A stretch of DNA of 64,000 nucleotides from Ignavibacteriota bacterium. GTDB taxonomy: Bacteria > Bacteroidota > Ignavibacteria > Ignavibacteriales > Ignavibacteriaceae. Under the pieces are notes generated by a model. It saw only the letters and a program-made list of their open reading frames with translations. It had not been told where the DNA came from and made no database searches. This document shows, piece after piece, positions 1,813 to 58,750 of this stretch (the first letter of the stretch is position 1; every line of letters begins with the position of its first letter). The position numbers were made by a program, and so were the translations under genes. The DNA is taken from the NCBI GenBank assembly GCA_013285405.1, contig CP053446.1:3395001-3459000 (forward strand). The letters are read 5' to 3'.

Positions 1813-2637
1813 GTGTCAGTTGAAAATAAAATTTCTGAATTATTCTCACTCAAAAATAAAGTTGCAGTTGTAACTGGTGCAATTGGATTACTGGGAAAGA
1901 ATCATTGTCATGCACTTGCTGAAGCCAGTGCTCATGTTATAGTTGCAGATTTGGATAAAAATGAATGTGAAAAATTTGCTTCTTCCCTTTCGGGAAATGC
2001 TTCTGGATTTGAAGTCGATATTACGAATAAAAAATCTATAATTGATTTGAAGGAAAAAATTATAAACAAATTTGGAAAGATCGATATACTTGTGAACAAT
2101 GCAGCTATCAATGATAAATTTAACGATCCTGTATCTGCAATCGAAGAATCAAAATTTGAAAATTATCCTGTTGAGATGTTCAGAAAATCTCTTGATGTAA
2201 ATGTAACCGGAATGTTTCTTTGTTCGCAGGTTATTGGAGCTGAAATGGCAAATAAAAGTTATGGAAGCATTATTAATATCGCATCAACTTATGGTATTGT
2301 TGCACCTGATCAATCTATTTACAAAAATGAAAAAGGTGAACAAACTTTTTATAAATCAGCAGCATATCCCGTTACGAAAGGTGCAGTTATTTCTTTCACA
2401 AGATTCCTTGCAGCTTACTGGGGAAATAAAGGCGTGCGTGTAAATACTTTATCACCGGGTGGTGTAAAAGATAATCAGGAAGAATTTTTTGTGAATAACT
2501 ATTCAGCGAAAACACCACTTGGGCGAATGGCTCATCCAAATGATTATAAAGGAGCCTTAATCTTTCTTGCAAGTGACGCTTCAAGTTATATGACTGGCGC
2601 AAATCTTATTGTTGATGGAGGTTGGACAGCATGGTAA
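1813..2637 (+). CDS. SDR-family NAD(P)-dependent oxidoreductase
   Basis: A 274-residue classical short-chain dehydrogenase with a GTG start one base after the aminotransferase stop, so it is probably translationally coupled. The cofactor motif TGAIGLLG is at residues 21-28, NNAA at 95-98, the catalytic serine near 158 and the YPVTK catalytic motif at 185-189. The C-terminus DGGWTAW is typical of the family. It likely oxidises or reduces a sugar intermediate of this operon. Its last codons lie inside a 29-bp sequence that recurs twice downstream; the third copy would end the SDR with TGA overlapping the next gene's ATG, suggesting the original junction was overlapping. Confidence 0.88.
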   Translation: MSVENKISELFSLKNKVAVVTGAIGLLGKNHCHALAEASAHVIVADLDKNECEKFASSLSGNASGFEVDITNKKSIIDLKEKIINKFGKIDILVNNAAINDKFNDPVSAIEESKFENYPVEMFRKSLDVNVTGMFLCSQVIGAEMANKSYGSIINIASTYGIVAPDQSIYKNEKGEQTFYKSAAYPVTKGAVISFTRFLAAYWGNKGVRVNTLSPGGVKDNQEEFFVNNYSAKTPLGRMAHPNDYKGALIFLASDASSYMTGANLIVDGGWTAW

Positions 2638-15181: not shown

Positions 15182-15336
15182 ATTTGAGTATTCCGAAATG
15201 TGAGTAAATACTTTTATTAATCAGTAAAAATATGTTCAAAATATTTCATTTAATAGTGTATAAATTAAGGTCTATTACAAATACAATTCAATCAGATAAA
15301 AGCAATGAGATAATTTGTTTGTTAGTAAAGAATAAA

Positions 15337-15367
15337 AAACTCCGATAAAACTACCGGAGTTTTGTGA
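15337..15367 (-). terminator. Terminator at the outer end of the tRNA-Glu array
   Basis: Minus strand AACTCCGGTAG..ATCGGAGTT is a stem followed by TTTTATTC. It resembles the per-unit hairpins but differs in sequence, and may be the original downstream flank of the tRNA gene before the array grew. Confidence 0.7.
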
Positions 15368-16041
15368 CTCCAAGGGGATTCTGCCGAAGGCATTCCTTTG
15401 GAAGAACCCTCTATTACCGCCGTAATTCTACTTTTTATTAAAATAAAAAAGCTTCGATATTTCTACCGAAGCTCTGGTGACCCCAAGGGGATTCTGCCGA
15501 AGGCATTCCTTTGGAAGAACACTCTATTACCGCCGTACTTCTACTTTTTATTAAAATAAAAAAGCTTCGATATTTCTACCGAAGCTCTGGTGACCCCAAG
15601 AGGATTCTGCCGAAGGCATTCCTTTGGAAGAACCCTCTATTACCACCGTACTTCTACTTTCTACCAAAATAAAAAAGCTTCGATATTTCTACCGAAGCTC
15701 TGGTGACCCCAAGGGGTTTCTGCCGAAGGCATTCCTTTGGAAGAACCCTCTATTACCACCGTACTTCTACTTTCTACCAAAATAAAAAAGCTTCGATATT
15801 TCTACCGAAGCTCTGGTGACCCCAAGGGGATTCTGCCGAAGGCATTCCTTTGGAAGAACCCTCTATTACCACCGTACTTCTACTTTCTACCAAAATAAAA
15901 AAGCTTCGATATTTCTACCGAAGCTCTGGTGACCCCAAGGGGATTCTGCCGAAGGCATTCCTTTGGAAGAACCCTCTATTACCGCCGTAATTCTACTTTT
16001 TATTAAAATAAAAAAGCTTCGATATTTCTACCGAAGCTCTG
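15364..16041 (-). repeat. Tandem array: six 113-bp units built from the 3' half of tRNA-Glu
   Basis: The tRNA 3'-end marker GTGAC recurs at 15364, 15477, 15590, 15703, 15816 and 15929 and in the intact tRNA at 16042, an exact 113-bp period. Each unit holds three parts in transcription order. First comes the tRNA from the anticodon stem to the 3' end. Its T-loop TTCGAA is split between TTC and GAA by about 22 bp of palindromic sequence. Last comes a hairpin AGCTTCG..CGAAGCT followed by six Ts, which looks like a terminator. Units differ by only a few bases. No open reading frame fits the array. Confidence 0.92.
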
Positions 16042-16114
16042 GTGACCCCAAGGGGATTCGAACCCCTATTACCGCCGTGAAAGGGCGAGGTCCTAACCAT
16101 TAGACGATGGGGCC
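16040..16114 (-). tRNA. tRNA-Glu (TTC)
   Basis: The minus strand folds as a full cloverleaf: acceptor GGCCCCA/TGGGGTC, anticodon loop CTTTCAC (anticodon TTC), T-loop GGTTCGAATCC and an encoded CCA at 16040-16042. It is the intact copy at the right end of the 113-bp array derived from its own 3' half. Confidence 0.95.
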
Positions 16115-37728: not shown

Positions 37729-37803
37729 AAACTTACTCTTAAACTTTAACTTTAACTTAAATTGTTTAGAAGTAAGTTTAAGAACAGGAGCTCAGCTAGC
37801 TCC
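37729..37803 (+). terminator. Possible terminator/hairpin region after the LiaF-like gene
   Basis: AAACTTACT (37729) pairs with AGTAAGTTT (37771), and GGAGCT..AGCTCC (37787-37803) forms a tight hairpin. The T run after it is short (CCCTTTAAA), so termination is uncertain. Confidence 0.4.
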
Positions 37804-38450
37804 CCTTTAAACGCTTTTTGCATTAAGCTTATGAACTCTCGCCAACCTCTCTCTTACCAAGAGAGAGGCTTATTTTCATTTTAAAACTTTTTTTAATTGT
37901 TCTGTCAGCATAAGAAATGTTTTTTTATAACTCTAAATAATCCCTTCTCTTTTTAAGAGAAAGGTACGGGATGAGTTCACGAAACCAACTCCCCTTTAAA
38001 TGCTTTTTGCATTATAAATAATCTCTCTCTTTATCTCTCTCTTGAAAAGAGAGAGAATTATTAAAAATTCAAAACTAATTATTAGTTCTTCTGTCAGCAT
38101 AAGAAATGTTTTTTTATAACTCTAAATAATCCCTTCTCTTTTTAAGAGAAGGGTACGGGATGAGTTCACGAAACCAACTCCGCTTTAAATGCTTTTTACA
38201 TTAAACTGAGGAACTCTCTCTTTATCTCTCTCTTACAAAGAGAGAGAATTATTAACAATTCAAAACTAATTATTAGTTCTTCTGTCAGCATAAGAAATGT
38301 TTTTTTATAACTCTAAATAATCCCTTCTCTTTTTAAGAGAAAGGTACGGGATGAGTTCACGAAACCAACTCCCCTTTAAATGCTTTTTACATTAAACTAA
38401 GGAACTCTCTCTTTATCTCTCTCTTACAAAGAGAGAGAATTAATATCATT
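37801..38450. repeat. Tandem repeat of about 190 bp (four flank copies, three insert copies)
   Basis: The segment beginning CCCCTTTAAA and ending in the CTCTCTCTT..AAGAGAGAG palindrome starts near 37801, 37990, 38179 and 38370. Between copies lies a second segment, TTCTGTCAGCATAAGAAATG onward, starting near 37901, 38090 and 38281. It contains CCCTTCTC..GAGAAAGG and GGGATGAGTTC. The order is A-B-A-B-A-B-A, as if insert B had duplicated flank A and the pair had then been amplified. There is no coding frame. Confidence 0.85.
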
Positions 38451-48572: not shown

Positions 48573-48865
48573 TTTAACCGGATCAGAAATTTCAGGATAC
48601 AAATCTTTCCAATCCTTATTTTTATCTTCAATCAAATTAATCTTCCACTGTCTGTGCCAATTCTTAAGTTGCTTTCTCTTTTAATTGCACTTTGCAAATC
48701 TGGTTGAGATTCAAAATAAACCAACTTATCCACATTATAATTTTTTGTAACACCTTCAATTAACCTATTTTTATGTTCAAAGATTCGTCTGGCTAATACA
48801 TTGGTCATCCCTATGTAAAGCACTTTATTTTTACTCGACAATATATAAACGTAATAATTTTTCAT
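48549..48865 (-). pseudogene. GIY-YIG nuclease-family protein, frameshifted
   Basis: The frame from ATG 48865 shows a UPF0213-type GIY-YIG domain (YYVYILSSKNKVLYIGMTN..RRIFEHKN..YNVDKLVYFE..AIKRE), then reads SNLRIGTDSGRLI and stops at 48632. Adding one base at the T run near 48673-48675 restores the family C-terminus KQLKNWHRQWKINLIEDKNK and runs to 48549, where the last codons come from a palindromic repeat. Either the gene is broken or the base is missing from the sequence. Such small GIY-YIG proteins are mobile and of unclear role. Confidence 0.75.
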
Positions 48866-48961: not shown

Positions 48962-50332
48962 TTATTGCAACTCCAGAATTTGAACTTTCGGTTCGACTAA
49001 TTTTTTCGGAATCAACGCAGGCCAATAAGCAACAACTTCTTTTGGCTTTGGTCTTCCACCAGCGAAACCAGTTACACTTGGTGGACCGGTTAGAATCAGC
49101 GGTGCGATTTCTTGTCCAAATCTGTTTACTGATTTCCAATCTTTTGATCTGACTGAAAAATGGAAAACTATTTCATTTATTTTATCTTCATCTAATTCAG
49201 GCGCAAGAGTTTCGTGTGTTGCATTGTAACCAATATATTCTGTTCTGATTTCATCGAATTGCAGTCCAAGATTTTCTAATCGCTTTCTTAAAATTTTATC
49301 GGCAGCTTTTGCTTTCGTCAATGCCTGCGGCCAGGAATAAGTCAGACTTCCTGATGAACTATAACCATCGCTGTATGAACAGGAAACTTTGTAGAATTCT
49401 GTTTCTGGTTTTCCTTTGACATTAAAAACTTTAACTCTATCCTTCCCAACTTCTTCAAGTTTAATTGAAGTGAAATCAGCGACACAATCAGGAGTTATAT
49501 ATTCTTTGGGATTTCCAATTTCATAAACGAGTTGTTCAGCAACTGTTTCGAATGAAACTCTTCCACCTGTATTGGTATGTTTCGTAATTATAACTTCACC
49601 ATTTGGAAAAGCTTCCGCAATCGGGAATCCAATTTCAGCAAAATTATCAATTGATTCCCAATCACCTAAAAAATTTCCACCTGATGCCTGGGCACCACAT
49701 TCAAGAATATGTCCGGCTACAGTTCCTGCAGCCATTAAATTATAATTTTTCATATCCCATCCAAATTCATAAATCATCGGAGCGAGTGTTAAACCTGTAT
49801 CGGTTGTTCTACCAGTAATTACAATATCAGCGCCCTTCTTTAACGCCTCAACAATTGGTGCAGCACCGAAATAAACATTTGCACTTAATAATTTATCTTT
49901 GACGAGAGTAATTGATTCACCGGTTTCCATATTATTCAGTTGAGAACCGTTTCCTAGAATTTCATCAAGTCGATCTTTGATATCATCACCTAAAACAACA
50001 GCAACATTTAATTTTATTATTCCGGCTTGATTTGCAACCTCACGAATTGCTTCCGCACAAGCGACCGGATTTACTCCGCCACCATTCGTAATAATTTTTA
50101 TTCCCTTTTGGGAAGAGATTGGAAGAATTCTTCTCATCAACTCGATCAAGTCAGTTGCATAACCAAGTTTGGGATCTTTATTTTTTTGTTTTTGAAGAAT
50201 GGACATCGTTACTTCAGCAAGATAATCCATTACAAGATAATCGATATCACCTTTTGTAACCTGATGATATGGTGCATCAATTAAATCACCCCAAAATCCT
50301 TGTCCGGAAGCTATTTTTATTTTTTCTTTCAT
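48962..50332 (-). CDS. AtuA-family (DUF1446) acyclic terpene utilisation protein
   Basis: A 456-residue protein with KIKIASGQGFWGDLIDAPYHQV at the start, DYLAEVTMSIL, ITNGGGVNPVACAEAIREVA, VITGRTTDTGLTLAPMIYEFGWD and ILECGAQASGGNFLGDW, all typical of AtuA/DUF1446. The family is linked to degradation of branched or acyclic terpenoid acids; the biochemical step is not settled. Its first 18 codons are copied seven more times upstream, and the present start and leader come from the innermost repeat. Confidence 0.85.
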   Translation of the reverse strand: MKEKIKIASGQGFWGDLIDAPYHQVTKGDIDYLVMDYLAEVTMSILQKQKNKDPKLGYATDLIELMRRILPISSQKGIKIITNGGGVNPVACAEAIREVANQAGIIKLNVAVVLGDDIKDRLDEILGNGSQLNNMETGESITLVKDKLLSANVYFGAAPIVEALKKGADIVITGRTTDTGLTLAPMIYEFGWDMKNYNLMAAGTVAGHILECGAQASGGNFLGDWESIDNFAEIGFPIAEAFPNGEVIITKHTNTGGRVSFETVAEQLVYEIGNPKEYITPDCVADFTSIKLEEVGKDRVKVFNVKGKPETEFYKVSCSYSDGYSSSGSLTYSWPQALTKAKAADKILRKRLENLGLQFDEIRTEYIGYNATHETLAPELDEDKINEIVFHFSVRSKDWKSVNRFGQEIAPLILTGPPSVTGFAGGRPKPKEVVAYWPALIPKKLVEPKVQILELQ

Positions 50333-51483
50333 CTCACTTTATGCTGAATTTATTTCAGCATCTTTAAGTGTTTGCTGTAATTTATTTATTGATTATACAC
50401 GAGTCCCTGAAACAAGTTCAGGGTAAAGTATTTAGTCACCCCAAAATCCTTGTCCGGAAGCTATTTTTATTTTTTCTTTCATCTCACTTTATGCTGAATC
50501 TACCTGTCGGTAGACAGGTTTATTTCAGCATCTTTAAGTGTTTGCTGTAATTTATTTATTGATTATACACGAGTCCCTGAAACAAGTTCAGGGTAAAGTA
50601 TTTAGTCACCCCAAAATCCTTGTCCGGAAGCTATTTTTATTTTTTCTTTCATCTCACTTTATGCTGAATTTATTTCAGCATCTTTAAGTGTTTGCTGTAA
50701 TTTATTTATTGATTATACACGAGTCCCTGAAACAAGTTCAGGGTAAAGTATTTAGTCACCCCAAAATCCTTGTCCGGAAGCTATTTTTATTTTTTCTTTC
50801 ATCTCACTTTATGCTGAATCTACCTGTCGGTAGACAGGTTTATTTCAGCATCTTTAAGTGTTTGCTGTAATTTATTTATTGATTATACACGAGTCCCTGA
50901 AACAAGTTCAGGGTAAAGTATTAAGTCACCCCAAAATCCTTGCCCGGAAGCTATTTTTATTTTTTCTTTCATCTCACTTTATGCTGAATCTACCTGTCGG
51001 TAGACAGGTTTATTTCAGCATCTTTAAGTGTTTGCTGTAATTTATTTATTGATTATACACGAGTCCCTGAAACAAGTTCAGGGTAAAGTATTTAGTCACC
51101 CCAAAATCCTTGTCCGGAAGCTATTTTTATTTTTTCTTTCATCTCACTTTATGCTGAATCTACCTGTCGGTAGACAGGTTTATTTCAGCATCTTTAAGTG
51201 TTTGCTGTAATTTATTTATTGATTATACACGAGTCCCTGAAACAAGTTCAGGGTAAAGTATTAAGTCACCCCAAAATCCTTGTCCGGAAGCTATTTTTAT
51301 TTTTTCTTTCATCTCACTTTATGCTGAATCTACCTGTCGGTAGACAGGTTTATTTCAGCATCTTTAAGTGTTTGCTGTAATTTATTTATTGATTATACAC
51401 GAGTCCCTGAAACAAGCTCAGGGTAAAGTATTAAGTCACCCCAAAATCCTTGTCCGGAGGCTATTTTTATTCTTTCTTTCAAT
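50286..51483. repeat. Tandem array of eight copies of the atuA-like gene's 5' end with palindromic elements
   Basis: The segment TCACCCCAAAATCC.. (reverse complement of codons 1-18) starts at 50286 (the gene), 50436, 50606, 50756, 50926, 51096, 51266 and 51436. Spacings are 150, 170, 150, 170, 170, 170 and 170 bp. Each spacer holds two palindromes, ATGCTGAA..TTCAGCAT and CCCTGAAACAAGTTCAGGG. The 170-bp units have 20 extra bases (CTACCTGTCGGTAGACAGG) nested in the first palindrome. The outermost copy diverges (CAATTAA replaces the ATG) and probably keeps the original upstream junction. A 60-codon open frame recurs in units but looks non-coding. Confidence 0.92.
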
Positions 51484-53598: not shown

Positions 53599-55530
53599 AT
53601 GAAACAATTCTTTAGTATACTTTTCTTGTTTGTACTTTTTTCTGGGCTTGTTCTTGCACAGGATAACGCAAGAGATTTAGCTCCGAAATCTTCAGGACCA
53701 GTAATAATCGCTGGACATGGTGGATTGCCAATTTGGGAAGCACCTACTGCAACCTTATTTGATAATGGTGGTATAGTAAACGATCCAGGTGGTGGATCAG
53801 GCGGTGCTGATAGAAGTTACATCGAATCAGCTTTAGGTCACACACTTTTCGGATGGGGTCATCAAATAGCTTCAAACATTTCTATGGCAGACGATTTTAC
53901 AATCCCTGCCGGTGAATCATGGCAGATTGATCAGTTGATATCTTATTCTTATCAGACTGGTTCAACAACTACATCAACAATAAACGATGCCAGAATTCAA
54001 ATTTGGAATGGTAGCCCAATGTCAGGCGGGACCGTTATCTGGGGTGATTTGACTACAAATCGTTTGGCTTCTTCAACATGGGGAAATATCTATAGAACAA
54101 CCGACACTGACCCAACAAATACTCAAAGACCTGTAATGATAGTAACATCTAACGTAGGTACAACTCTTCCTGCTGGTACTTATTGGATTGAATGGCGATT
54201 AGGTGGAACTTTATCTTCGGGTCCTTGGTGCCCACCGGTTTGTTCACTCGGTGTTGCAGTAACAGGCGATGCATTGCAATTTAATGCTGGTACTTGGGCA
54301 GCAGCTTTAAACGGAACTTCACCTAACGGAGCTCCTTTTATACTTACAGGCAGCATTGTTGGTGGTGGAGGCAATACGTTTTTCGAAGACTTCGAAGGCT
54401 TTGCCGTTGGCGGACAAGTTGCTTGTCAGGATCCTGCAAACTGGACAACCTGGAGTCAACTGCCTTGCAGTGCAGAAGATGCATCTGTATCCTCAAACTA
54501 TGCACACAGTGGTACAAAATCTTTTGTTATCGTACCAGCTAATGACTTCGTGAAACCGCTTGGCGATAAAACATCCGGTAAATGGTGGGTAAGTTTCTGG
54601 GTATATATGCCAACAGGTAAAGGTGGATATTTCAATACACTTAACACATTCCCTGCTACTGCATCTGAACATTGGGGAATGGAAGTTTATTTTGACGTAG
54701 GTGGTGCTGGAAGACTTCTCAATGGTGGTACAGTTAACTTCTCCTGGACAGAAAATACCTGGCAGTATTGTGAAGTTATTGTTGACCTTGATCTCGATCA
54801 GGCTCAGTTCTGGTTCAATGGAAGTCAGGTTGGAACAAGCTGGCAGTGGACAAGAGGAAATCCGGCTTATGCACTTAAATTAGCTGCAAACGATTTCTAT
54901 GGTCCGTTACAGACAACTGCTGACGAATGTTATTATGATGATTACTGGTTCGGTGATGAAGCCTGGGTTCCTGTTGAAATGACTTCATTCGCTGGAAGTG
55001 TAAACAATCTCGGTCAAGTTGTATTGAACTGGCAAACAGCTTCCGAATTAAATAACCATATGTTTGAAATTGAAAGAAGAACAGAAACTTCTGAATTCAG
55101 AACTGTTGGTTTTGTTGAAGGTCACGGAACTACTACACAGCAGAATAACTACAGCTATGTTGATAAAACTGCTGAACAAGGTGTTAATTATTACAGACTC
55201 AAACAAGTTGATTTCAACGGAACATATTCTTATTCAGACATCGTTGAAATTGAAGTAGTTGGTCCATTAACATTTGAATTGGCTCAGAATTATCCAAACC
55301 CATTCAACCCATCAACAAACATTAAATACAGTGTACCTGAATCTGGTAATATCAGACTTTCAGTTTACAATCTTGTTGGTGAGGAAGTTGCAGTATTAGT
55401 AAATGGTTTCAGCCAGGCTGGATTCTATGAAGTAACTTTTGATGCTTCAAATCTTTCGACAGGTGTTTACCTTTATAAATTACAGTCAGCTAATTCAGTT
55501 CAGACAAAGAAGATGATGTTACTCAAGTAA
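53599..55530 (+). CDS. Secreted T9SS-sorted protein, paralogue 1
   Basis: The 643-residue protein has a signal peptide ending VLAQ and a unique beta-rich N-terminal region (about 25-250, with WEAPTATLFDNGG and FTLTGSIV-like strands). A laminin-G-like or jelly-roll region follows from NTFFEDFEGFAVGG (about 255-455), then a fibronectin-like segment (VPVEMTSFAGSVNNLGQVVL). It ends in a sorting domain from NYPNPFNPSTNIKYSVPES to KKMMLLK. The strong AGGAGG, large size and paralogue next door suggest a highly expressed surface protein. From about residue 255 it is nearly identical to its neighbour. Confidence 0.88.
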   Translation: MKQFFSILFLFVLFSGLVLAQDNARDLAPKSSGPVIIAGHGGLPIWEAPTATLFDNGGIVNDPGGGSGGADRSYIESALGHTLFGWGHQIASNISMADDFTIPAGESWQIDQLISYSYQTGSTTTSTINDARIQIWNGSPMSGGTVIWGDLTTNRLASSTWGNIYRTTDTDPTNTQRPVMIVTSNVGTTLPAGTYWIEWRLGGTLSSGPWCPPVCSLGVAVTGDALQFNAGTWAAALNGTSPNGAPFILTGSIVGGGGNTFFEDFEGFAVGGQVACQDPANWTTWSQLPCSAEDASVSSNYAHSGTKSFVIVPANDFVKPLGDKTSGKWWVSFWVYMPTGKGGYFNTLNTFPATASEHWGMEVYFDVGGAGRLLNGGTVNFSWTENTWQYCEVIVDLDLDQAQFWFNGSQVGTSWQWTRGNPAYALKLAANDFYGPLQTTADECYYDDYWFGDEAWVPVEMTSFAGSVNNLGQVVLNWQTASELNNHMFEIERRTETSEFRTVGFVEGHGTTTQQNNYSYVDKTAEQGVNYYRLKQVDFNGTYSYSDIVEIEVVGPLTFELAQNYPNPFNPSTNIKYSVPESGNIRLSVYNLVGEEVAVLVNGFSQAGFYEVTFDASNLSTGVYLYKLQSANSVQTKKMMLLK

Positions 55531-55712: not shown

Positions 55713-57572
55713 ATGAAACAAATCACTCAATTTTTTCTTTCCTTCCTGATTATTTCAAGTATTGTGTTAGCTCAGGAAAACAACAGAGACCTAACCAAAA
55801 CACCATCCAATTTTGATAATCCTAAATATGTTTATGGTCCAGGATTGACTGAAGCTACTTTGGGCTTCGCAGAAAGTTTCGAAGATGCAACATTCCCACC
55901 GGCTGGATGGCTCAAGGCTAATCCTGATGGTGGTACTGGTTGGAACAGACAACTAGCAGGTACAACACCTATACCTGGTTGGAACGGTGGAGTTATCACA
56001 GCACCCTCAGGCGGTGGAAATGCAGTTGCATTTTGCACTTGGAATACTGGAGGCGCTACTTCAAATGACCAATGGCTTATCACACCCCAGGTAACAAATG
56101 TTCAAACTGGTGATATGTTAACTTTTTGGATGTTGATCCCTGGATATGCAAATGGTAGCTACCTTGAACAAGTTGATATCAGAATTTCAACAACTGGAAC
56201 CAATGTTTCTGACTTTTCAACTGTTGTTGCAGCATTAGTTTTCCCTGCTGGCTCTCCTGATACTACCTGGATTCAATATTCATATCAATTAACAAATTTT
56301 GTTTCACCTGGTTCAAACATTTACATTGGTTTCCGAGAGCATGTAACTGATAATTTAAATGATGGCGCTGCAGTTCTTTTAGATTTGGTTGAAGTAACTC
56401 AAGGTGGATCCAGTAACACCTTCTTCGAAGATTTTGAAGGCTTTGCCGTTGGCGGACAAGTTGCGTGTCAGGATCCAACAAACTGGTCAACCTGGAGTCA
56501 ACTACCATGTAGTGCAGAAGATGCATCTGTATCCTCCAACTATGCACACAGTGGTACAAAATCTTTTGTTATCGTACCAGCTAATGACTTCGTGAAACCG
56601 CTTGGCGATAAAACATCCGGTAAATGGTGGATTAGCTTCTGGGTATATATGCCAACAGGTAAAGGTGGATATTTCAATACACTTAACACATTCCCTGCTA
56701 CTGCAAATGAACACTGGGGAATGGAACTTTATTTTGACGTAGGTGGCGCAGGAAGACTTCTTAATGGTGGGACAGTAAACTTCTCCTGGACAGAAAATAC
56801 CTGGCAGTATTGTGAAGTTATTGTTGACCTTGATCTCGATCAGGCTCAGTTCTGGTTCAATGGAAGTCAGGTTGGAACAAGCTGGCAGTGGACAAGAGGA
56901 AATCCAGCTTATGCACTTAAATTAGCTGCAAACGATTTCTATGGTCCGTTACAGACAACTGCTGACGAATGTTATTATGATGATTACTGGTTCGGTGATG
57001 AAGCCTGGGTTCCTGTTGAAATGACTTCATTCGCTGGAAGTGTAAACAATCTCGGTCAAGTTGTATTGAACTGGCAAACAGCTTCCGAATTAAACAACCA
57101 TATGTTTGAAATTGAAAGAAGAACAGAAACTTCTGAATTCAGAACTGTTGGTTTTGTTGAAGGTCACGGAACTACTACACAGCAGAATAACTACAGCTAT
57201 GTTGATAAAACTGCTGAACAAGGTGTTAATTATTACAGACTCAAACAAGTTGATTTCAACGGAACATATTCTTATTCAGACATCGTTGAAATTGAAGTAG
57301 TTGGTCCATTAACATTTGAATTGGCTCAGAATTATCCAAACCCATTCAACCCATCAACAAACATTAAATACAGTGTTCCTGAATCAGGTAATATCAGACT
57401 TTCAGTTTACAATCTTGTTGGTGAGGAAGTTGCAGTATTAGTAAATGGTTTCAGCCAGGCTGGATTCTATGAAGTAACTTTTGATGCTTCAAATCTTTCG
57501 ACAGGTGTTTACCTTTACAAATTACAGTCAGCTAATTCAGTTCAAACAAAGAAGATGATGTTACTCAAGTAA
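55713..57572 (+). CDS. Secreted T9SS-sorted protein, paralogue 2
   Basis: A 619-residue protein with a signal peptide ending VLAQ. Its N-terminal domain differs from paralogue 1: FAESFEDATFPPAGWLKANPDGG..NDQWLITPQV..IYIGFREHVTD, a choice-of-anchor-J/cleaved-adhesin-like fold. From NTFFEDFEGFAVGG onward it matches paralogue 1 almost residue for residue, including the C-terminal sorting domain. The near identity at DNA level, through the terminator, points to recent duplication or gene conversion. Confidence 0.88.
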   Translation: MKQITQFFLSFLIISSIVLAQENNRDLTKTPSNFDNPKYVYGPGLTEATLGFAESFEDATFPPAGWLKANPDGGTGWNRQLAGTTPIPGWNGGVITAPSGGGNAVAFCTWNTGGATSNDQWLITPQVTNVQTGDMLTFWMLIPGYANGSYLEQVDIRISTTGTNVSDFSTVVAALVFPAGSPDTTWIQYSYQLTNFVSPGSNIYIGFREHVTDNLNDGAAVLLDLVEVTQGGSSNTFFEDFEGFAVGGQVACQDPTNWSTWSQLPCSAEDASVSSNYAHSGTKSFVIVPANDFVKPLGDKTSGKWWISFWVYMPTGKGGYFNTLNTFPATANEHWGMELYFDVGGAGRLLNGGTVNFSWTENTWQYCEVIVDLDLDQAQFWFNGSQVGTSWQWTRGNPAYALKLAANDFYGPLQTTADECYYDDYWFGDEAWVPVEMTSFAGSVNNLGQVVLNWQTASELNNHMFEIERRTETSEFRTVGFVEGHGTTTQQNNYSYVDKTAEQGVNYYRLKQVDFNGTYSYSDIVEIEVVGPLTFELAQNYPNPFNPSTNIKYSVPESGNIRLSVYNLVGEEVAVLVNGFSQAGFYEVTFDASNLSTGVYLYKLQSANSVQTKKMMLLK

Positions 57573-57844: not shown

Positions 57845-57918
57845 GGCGGCGTTGCCAAGCGGTCTAAGGCGAAGGTCTGCAAAACCTTTATTCGTCGGTT
57901 CGAATCCGACCGCCGCCT
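57845..57918 (+). tRNA. tRNA-Cys (GCA)
   Basis: Cloverleaf with acceptor GGCGGCG/CGCCGCC, anticodon loop CTGCAAA (GCA), T-loop GGTTCGAATCC and discriminator U73 as expected for cysteine; CCA not encoded. It is the intact copy at the left end of the 92-bp array. Confidence 0.95.
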
Positions 57919-58750
57919 CTAAATTTTTTCTCAAGTAATTTATTCCTCCGATAAAACCTTTATTCGAAGTTCTCCCAAAGGGATTCCTTCGGAAGATTCT
58001 GACCACCGCCTCTAATTTTTTCTCAAGTAATTTATTCCTCCGGCAAAACCTTTATTCGAAGTTCTCCCAAAGGGATTCCTTCGGAAGAATCTGACCGCCG
58101 CCTCTAAATTTTTCTCAAGAAATTTATTCCTCCGGCAAAACCTTTATTCGAAGTTCTCCCAAAGGGATTCCTTCGGAAGAATCCGACCGCCGCCTCTAAA
58201 TTTTTCTCAAGTAATTTATTCCTCCCGCAAAACCTTTATTCGAAGTTCTCCCAAAGGGATTCCTTCGGAAGAATCCGACCGCCGCCTCTAATTTTTTCTC
58301 AAGTAATTTATTCCTCCGATAAAACCTTTATTCGAAGTTCTCCCAAAGGGATTCCTTCGGAAGATTCTGACCGCCGCCTCTAACTTTTTCTCAAGTAATT
58401 TATTCCTCCCGCAAAACCATTATTCGAAGTTCTCCCAAAGGGATTCCTTCGGAAGATTCTGACCACCGCCTCTAATTTTTTCTCAAGTAATTTATTCCTC
58501 CGGCAAAACCTTTATTCGAAGTTCTCCCAAAGGGATTCCTTCGGAAGATTCTGACCACCGCCTCTAATTTTTTCTCAAGTAATTTATTCCTCCGGCAAAA
58601 CCTTTATTCGAAGTTCTCCCAAAGGGATTCCTTCGGAAGAATCTGACCGCCGCCTCTAATTTTTTCTCAAGTGATTTATTCCTCCGGCAATACCTTTATT
58701 CGAAGTTCTCTCAATAGGATTCCTTCGGAAGATTCTGACCGCCGCCTCTT
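57919..58750 (+). repeat. Tandem array: nine 92-bp units built from the 3' half of tRNA-Cys
   Basis: The marker TCTCCCAAAG (variant in the last unit) recurs at 57971, 58063, 58155, 58247, 58339, 58431, 58523, 58615 and 58707, an exact 92-bp period. Each unit has an AT-rich linker, then GCAAAACCTTTATTCG from the tRNA anticodon region, then the T-arm with TTC and GAA separated by about 22 bp of palindromic sequence, and the acceptor end CCGCCGCCTCT. The unit is non-coding. It has the same architecture and insertion point as the tRNA-Glu array. Confidence 0.92.

Follow-up and report, generated by a model that had tools for sequence, protein, structure and literature searches.

The window analysed here, a stretch of 64,000 nucleotides of an Ignavibacteriota genome, carries an intact tRNA-Cys(GCA) gene (57845-57919, plus strand; ARAGORN, and Rfam RF00005 at 63 bits) that is the parent of a tandem array of nine T-loop-split tRNA-Cys 3'-half copies with their linker (57908-58749, plus strand). 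TRF assigns the array a period of 92 bp, 9.1 copies and 95% matches, and direct reading resolves nine split units, as stated in a first-pass annotation that had described a nine-copy, 92-bp array derived from the 3' half of tRNA-Cys. Each unit consists of a linker followed by tRNA-Cys from approximately the anticodon to its end, with the T-loop split as TTC / 22 bp / GAA. By direct reading, the TTC of the nine units starts at 57970, 58062, 58154, 58246, 58338, 58430, 58522, 58614 and 58706, and the corresponding 22-bp double mini-hairpin inserts occupy 57973-57994, 58065-58086, 58157-58178, 58249-58270, 58341-58362, 58433-58454, 58525-58546, 58617-58638 and 58709-58730 (all on the plus strand), the ninth being the most diverged. 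In some units the insert is followed by GAT and not by GAA. The Cys copies also differ in the 5' strand of the T-stem (TCGGTTC having become AAGTTC), and the 5' acceptor strand is missing from the split copies. The units share variants as a patchwork; serial insertion beside tRNA-Cys with the newest unit first was considered and rejected, since the units show no clear gradient. Searching Rfam revealed no known family besides tRNA. The array contains no open frame longer than 55 aa, and neither an integrase nor any other sizeable gene lies within or next to it, so that an integrase-type island was likewise rejected. Searches with PF01541 and with our own profile, together with the open frames, yielded no GIY-YIG gene in or adjoining either this array or the tRNA-Glu array described below.

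The second array lies on the opposite strand and has the same build. Its parent is an intact tRNA-Glu(TTC) (16040-16114, minus strand; ARAGORN, Rfam), and it comprises six T-loop-split tRNA-Glu 3'-half copies with a period of 113 bp (15331-16059, minus strand; TRF, sequence and genome-wide core search). Sequence and core search place the six inserts at 15382-15403, 15495-15516, 15608-15629, 15721-15742, 15834-15855 and 15947-15968 (minus strand). The recurrence of the T-loop split in an independent tRNA on the opposite strand, to which the first-pass annotation had drawn attention, is thus confirmed; its statement that TTC^GAA is divided at the same place stands for the T-loop junction, but not for the units in which GAT follows the insert. 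Within the window the search pattern gives 32 matches against 2.6 expected, the highest count among 100 shuffles being eight, which excludes chance as the origin of the arrays. Other repeats of the window include a tandem array of period 170/340 with a palindrome of GTCCCTGAAACAAGTTCAGGG type (50280-51481), a further tandem array with a period of 191 bp and 3.4 copies (37800-38442), and two adjacent large proteins (53599-55530 and 55713-57572) whose C-terminal regions are almost the same over several hundred residues.

The insert had been described as a palindrome, but its structure is a different one. It consists of TNCC-NNN-GGN'A twice, that is, of two adjacent 11-nt mini-hairpins, each with a 4-bp stem and a 3-nt loop. 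Across 23 distinct T-loop inserts, drawn from this genome and its relatives, the two-hairpin structure has 98.9% of cells paired and 31 cells changed on both sides, a score that none of 500 shuffles reaches; control (a) of this test does not remove relatedness, and slid versions, which keep it, score far lower. Mini-hairpins such as TCAC-GTA-GTGA and TCGC-TTT-GCGA have the same fold in other letters. A single palindrome of about 28 bp was rejected, the pairing of the long hairpin falling below that of the shuffles. The compensatory changes in the stems may stem from selection or from template-switch correction. At two other loci (L211 and L032) a further insert sits in the loop of the second mini-hairpin and brings the T-loop insert to 40-44 bp in all, as though the hairpins were nested.

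Such strong compensatory change would be expected if the split copies were a maintained array of small structured RNAs (decoys or regulators), comparable to the transcript reported from the E. coli tyrT repeats, and in the Thr, Glu and Met arrays the units do contain what by eye resemble the terminator hairpins of the parent tRNA. We nevertheless regard a small-RNA array as highly unlikely. The limits of the copies vary from tRNA to tRNA and exclude the 5' acceptor strand, the units are present at the tRNAs of some relatives and absent at those of others, and in single-strand DNA folding the two-hairpin form is not preferred throughout, some units folding preferentially into long hairpins.

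A whole-genome search for the 22-bp core with the flanks left free recovers 11 split units derived from tRNA-Thr and further half-copies derived from tRNA-Glu, Cys, Ser, Val-tac, Val-gac, Pro and Leu, and a 44-bp variant of the insert is found in six units at tRNA-Met. These eight tRNA loci and the Met variant compare with about four to five non-tRNA loci with good mini-hairpins, so that insertion in this genome is not dispersed without regard to tRNA sites: most copies of the core occupy split T-loops. Nine tRNA loci share the split at C56|R57, a junction that holds in every case where it can be assigned with single-base precision. The directed process advocated by the first-pass annotation is therefore upheld, whereas TTCGAA as its proposed target is not. 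The split falls at TTC^AAG in copies of tRNA-Leu and tRNA-Met and at TTC^AAA in those of tRNA-Pro, which shows that TTCGAA is not required, and the non-tRNA copies of the core interrupt other words (such as GTC^GAA), often in the loop of another palindrome. The expectation that most genomic hits would be split T-loops or TTCGAA sites is borne out as regards split T-loops. The insertion site is the T-loop position C56|R57, not a six-base word. Similarly, both arrays of the window lie 3' of their intact tRNA, as had been noted, but at some other loci 5'-half and full-length copies are found upstream of intact tRNAs. Locus L032 (G000:C1:3652000-3655200) carries upstream of an intact tRNA-Met a 5' tRNA copy with a 50-bp, hairpin-built insert in the D-loop (about 2075-2183, minus strand).

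In other genomes of the family the core occurs more often in palindrome loops than in T-loops, where it lies centrally in the loops of dispersed palindromes such as CCCACTTTC^GTGGG and AGTC^GAAGACT; the 22-bp element is therefore not confined to tRNAs. This genome, too, has dispersed palindromes, such as CCTGCCTATCGGACAGGCAGG, inside what looks like coding sequence, where they recur in two similar genes (L037, G000:C1:608300-612300).

The context of these arrays is wider than the first-pass annotation had drawn it, and takes in hairpins in further arms of the tRNA as well as GIY-YIG genes. This genome contains 20 GIY-YIG matches (PF01541), 18 of which are small genes. Thirteen of these 18 accompany a tRNA or tmRNA: five stand in tandem at tRNA-Asp, three at tRNA-Ser and two at tRNA-Leu (some 1.6 kb upstream of the intact gene), and the others at Asn, Ala and tmRNA, with hairpin-broken 5' or 3' copies, those at Leu and tmRNA being judged by eye. 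Tandem arrays occur with the GIY-YIG gene, as at Asp (five copies) and Ser (three), and also without it; most of the other loci with split copies in this genome have no GIY-YIG gene beside them. In nine associated proteins the catalytic residues Y5, Y16, G18, R26, H30, N31 and E62 are invariant; PF01541 E-values are about 1e-15 to 1e-17, and the nearest solved structures are UPF0213 and SLX1. At the tmRNA locus (L123, G000:C1:2257964-2261176), tmRNA is followed by a GIY-YIG gene that is itself flanked by apparently repeated tmRNA-like segments; related GIY-YIG genes are also located at tmRNA in three other genomes (G026, G029 and G033). At a further locus (L108, G000:C1:2617851-2618063), a GIY-YIG gene lying between inverted copies of TATTTGACGGGGT appears to break another reading frame.

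Relatives display the association at tRNA-Cys, tRNA-Glu and tRNA-Met. In two genomes of the same genus (G004 and G005), tRNA-Cys is followed by a small GIY-YIG gene and then by a 3' half-copy of tRNA-Cys in which a hairpin replaces the 5' side of the T-arm, while in G001-G003 tRNA-Cys is bare, bare and occupied tRNA-Cys loci being observed between species only. In G003 and G018, a tRNA-Glu copy that carries precisely the 22-bp T-loop insert and is otherwise a near-perfect tRNA directly precedes a GIY-YIG gene and an intact tRNA-Glu, and the near-perfect state of these copies argues that the insert came with the duplication or soon after it. The same pattern of 22-bp insert and GIY-YIG gene is found at tRNA-Met in G006. 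Such direct adjacency of insert and gene is seen at a handful of loci.

The association is general, recurring at many tRNAs. Among the best-ranked matches in this genome and 30 relatives, 57 of 94 small GIY-YIG loci lie at most 300 bp from an intact tRNA or tmRNA, a fraction that, given the ranking, holds for the better-scoring genes. In a GTDB scan queried with one protein, itself tRNA-linked, 68 of 80 homologues lie within the same distance, all on the strand of the tRNA; they come from Bacteroidota, Ignavibacteriota, Cloacimonadota, Neomarinimicrobiota, Patescibacteria and other phyla, the nearest homologue belonging to a Melioribacter MAG. The strand bias is complete, with none of the 127 tRNA-near GIY-YIG genes of the combined 94-locus and GTDB sets on the opposite strand. 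A far-side match of at least 20 identities to the neighbouring tRNA is present at 62 of the 127, against 5 of 1270 wrong-tRNA controls. The T-loop is interrupted in 22 of 53 far-side 3' copies, and the remaining 31, as judged from printed segments, have a contiguous T-loop and a hairpin in the anticodon arm, which means that the T-loop cannot be the sole target. A stem of at least 6 bp is present in 45 of these 53 copies (335 of 5300 shuffles). A single insertion boundary per isotype was rejected, the boundaries being weakly clustered (21 of 2000 permutations were as low). On a tree of 175 proteins, target isotype is clustered, with 63 changes versus 117.6 when shuffled (0 of 200 shuffles); groups are formed by Glu, Leu, Met, Ala, Ser and Asp genes and by a mostly-Cys set, and several of them span phyla.

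These regularities bear on whether ordinary replication errors, through tandem duplication of the 3' end of a tRNA and template-switch growth of a hairpin at its palindromic loop, could have produced the arrays with no dedicated enzyme. The head-to-tail arrangement of the arrays and their patchwork of shared variants are what unequal exchange would leave, but replication errors predict neither a conserved core (TNCC-NNN-GGNA twice) of fixed length 22 at the same junction across isotypes nor an association with GIY-YIG genes that is confined to one strand, and we consider them a very improbable source.

The 175-protein tree also contains a supported clade of 25 GIY-YIG genes with no tRNA nearby. 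Among tRNA-less GIY-YIG genes, 19 of 36 have a shared repeat of at least 12 bp on both flanks, against 26 of 564 controls, and many of these flanking repeats are dispersed palindromes. The window itself contains a small GIY-YIG gene with a 79-codon open frame (48662-48859, minus strand), identified by its PF01541 match, by our own profile and by the tree, in which it falls in the clade not linked to tRNAs; this gene is related to the tRNA-linked elements and is not part of the Cys array. Palindromic repeats of GATCCTGAA...TTCAGGAT type are seen on either side of it.

The palindromes invite a further explanation, namely that an independent mobile double-hairpin element inserts itself into hairpin loops and is tolerated in dead tRNA copies, the GIY-YIG genes being separate passengers. 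It would accommodate the cores found at the loop centres of dispersed palindromes in other genomes of the family and the several split-copy loci that have no GIY-YIG gene, and this genome does encode four Y1 transposases, the type of enzyme that mobilises REP sequences. We find it unlikely all the same: no Y1 gene lies near the arrays, most copies in this genome sit in T-loops at one fixed junction, and the near-perfect split tRNA-Glu copies of G003 and G018 adjoin a GIY-YIG gene. Moreover, the hairpins of GIY-flanking copies are unrelated in sequence and yet take the same arm positions, which one element family would not explain.

The reading we favour, and consider probable, is that the Cys array belongs to a family of tRNA-targeting GIY-YIG elements as a relic or satellite that lacks the endonuclease. 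In its anatomy the array shares one feature of these elements, a partial tRNA copy beside an intact tRNA with a hairpin in one arm, repeated in nine units. No GIY-YIG gene stands between the intact tRNA and the copies at either array of the window, which is the reason for speaking of a relic or satellite and not of a full member, and the same tRNA-Cys does have the gene in G004 and G005. A full element would consist of a small UPF0213/Slx1-like GIY-YIG gene beside a tRNA gene and on its strand, and its arrival would leave one intact tRNA and one displaced partial copy, in which a short hairpin interrupts or takes the place of one arm, be it the anticodon arm or the T-loop at C56|R57. Tandem multiplication would then act on units of gene and broken copy together, or of broken copy and linker alone. 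Related GIY-YIG nucleases would presumably cut the tRNA gene at a loop, and the hairpin would deprive the displaced copy of its cut site or of an arm able to fold, so that this copy would no longer be cut; breaks and recombination between repeats could build the tandem arrays, as reported for phage SegB, and arrays with no gene would depend, or have depended, on an endonuclease acting in trans. UPF0213 and SLX1 being the nearest solved relatives, recognition of folded DNA arms is plausible. We infer that the elements are mobile and that their nucleases cleave DNA.

Within the much wider class of tRNA-linked GIY-YIG elements, the Cys and Glu arrays appear to represent the extreme that has no gene. 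More tentatively, and as a possibility rather than an expectation, we propose that this class is an undescribed and widespread cellular mobile element, in which a lone UPF0213/Slx1-like GIY-YIG nuclease recognises folded arms of tRNA genes in DNA, settles alongside and restores the tRNA in the process, and exchanges an arm of the displaced copy for a hairpin, by which that copy is marked or immunised; tandem satellites that lack the endonuclease, among them the Cys and Glu arrays, would go with it. No description of cellular GIY-YIG genes tied to tRNA genes was found in the open-licence literature searched. If the proposal is right, a single kind of element, parasitic on tRNA genes and leaving scars that can be counted, would account for many genes that carry no annotation beyond small GIY-YIG nuclease in Bacteroidota, Ignavibacteriota, Cloacimonadota, Neomarinimicrobiota and Patescibacteria. 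It would also provide a source for bacterial tRNA pseudogenes and tandem arrays of tRNA fragments, and would connect a structure-specific nuclease family with the dispersed palindromes of these genomes in a way that can be tested.

Several known systems share part of this anatomy. Integrative elements that use the 3' end of tRNA genes as attachment sites also leave a partial copy and rebuild an intact tRNA, but here there is no integrase or cargo, the unit measures 92 bp and the copy contains a hairpin. The E. coli tyrT repeats (rtT RNA) are tandem repeats with the 3' end of the tRNA and its terminator, and would resemble the arrays in holding a tRNA 3' end in tandem; we know of no T-loop hairpin insert or GIY-YIG link in them. 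Bacterial REP/BIME palindromes moved by Y1 transposases (RAYT) are likewise short and dispersed, and Y1 genes are present in this genome, none of them by an array; here, unlike in REP/RAYT systems, the junction is fixed in a tRNA loop and GIY-YIG genes are associated. With its two short hairpins and compensatory stems, the 22-bp insert has the make-up of the double-hairpin elements and GC clusters of fungal and sponge mitochondria, which are tandem pairs of short hairpins, presumed mobile and located inside RNA genes (PMC2800124, PMC4478555); those elements are mitochondrial and not bound to one tRNA position, whereas the insert described here is 22 bp long and placed at C56|R57 of displaced tRNA copies.

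The associated genes resemble free-standing homing endonucleases in their intact catalytic GIY-YIG residues, and the closest parallel of this kind comes from phages T4 and T6. According to the relevant sections of the report on SegB, this GIY-YIG homing endonuclease of phage T6 cleaves within tRNA genes at the motif RAWTSGAAC and drives tandem amplification of tRNA segments (PMC13096335). SegB is phage-borne and the elements here are chromosomal; the same sections describe no hairpin-broken tRNA copies and report no isotype preference (PMC13096335), while here isotypes cluster on the protein tree. The likeness, drawn by motif and described features, lies in a free-standing GIY-YIG gene beside tRNA genes, cutting within them and tandem amplification. 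In our comparison, GATTCGAAC, which is the T-loop read on the other strand, fits the SegB motif, but only 81 of 207 intact tRNAs here contain an exact match to it. If our proposal is right, the elements described here would constitute a cellular counterpart of phage SegB.
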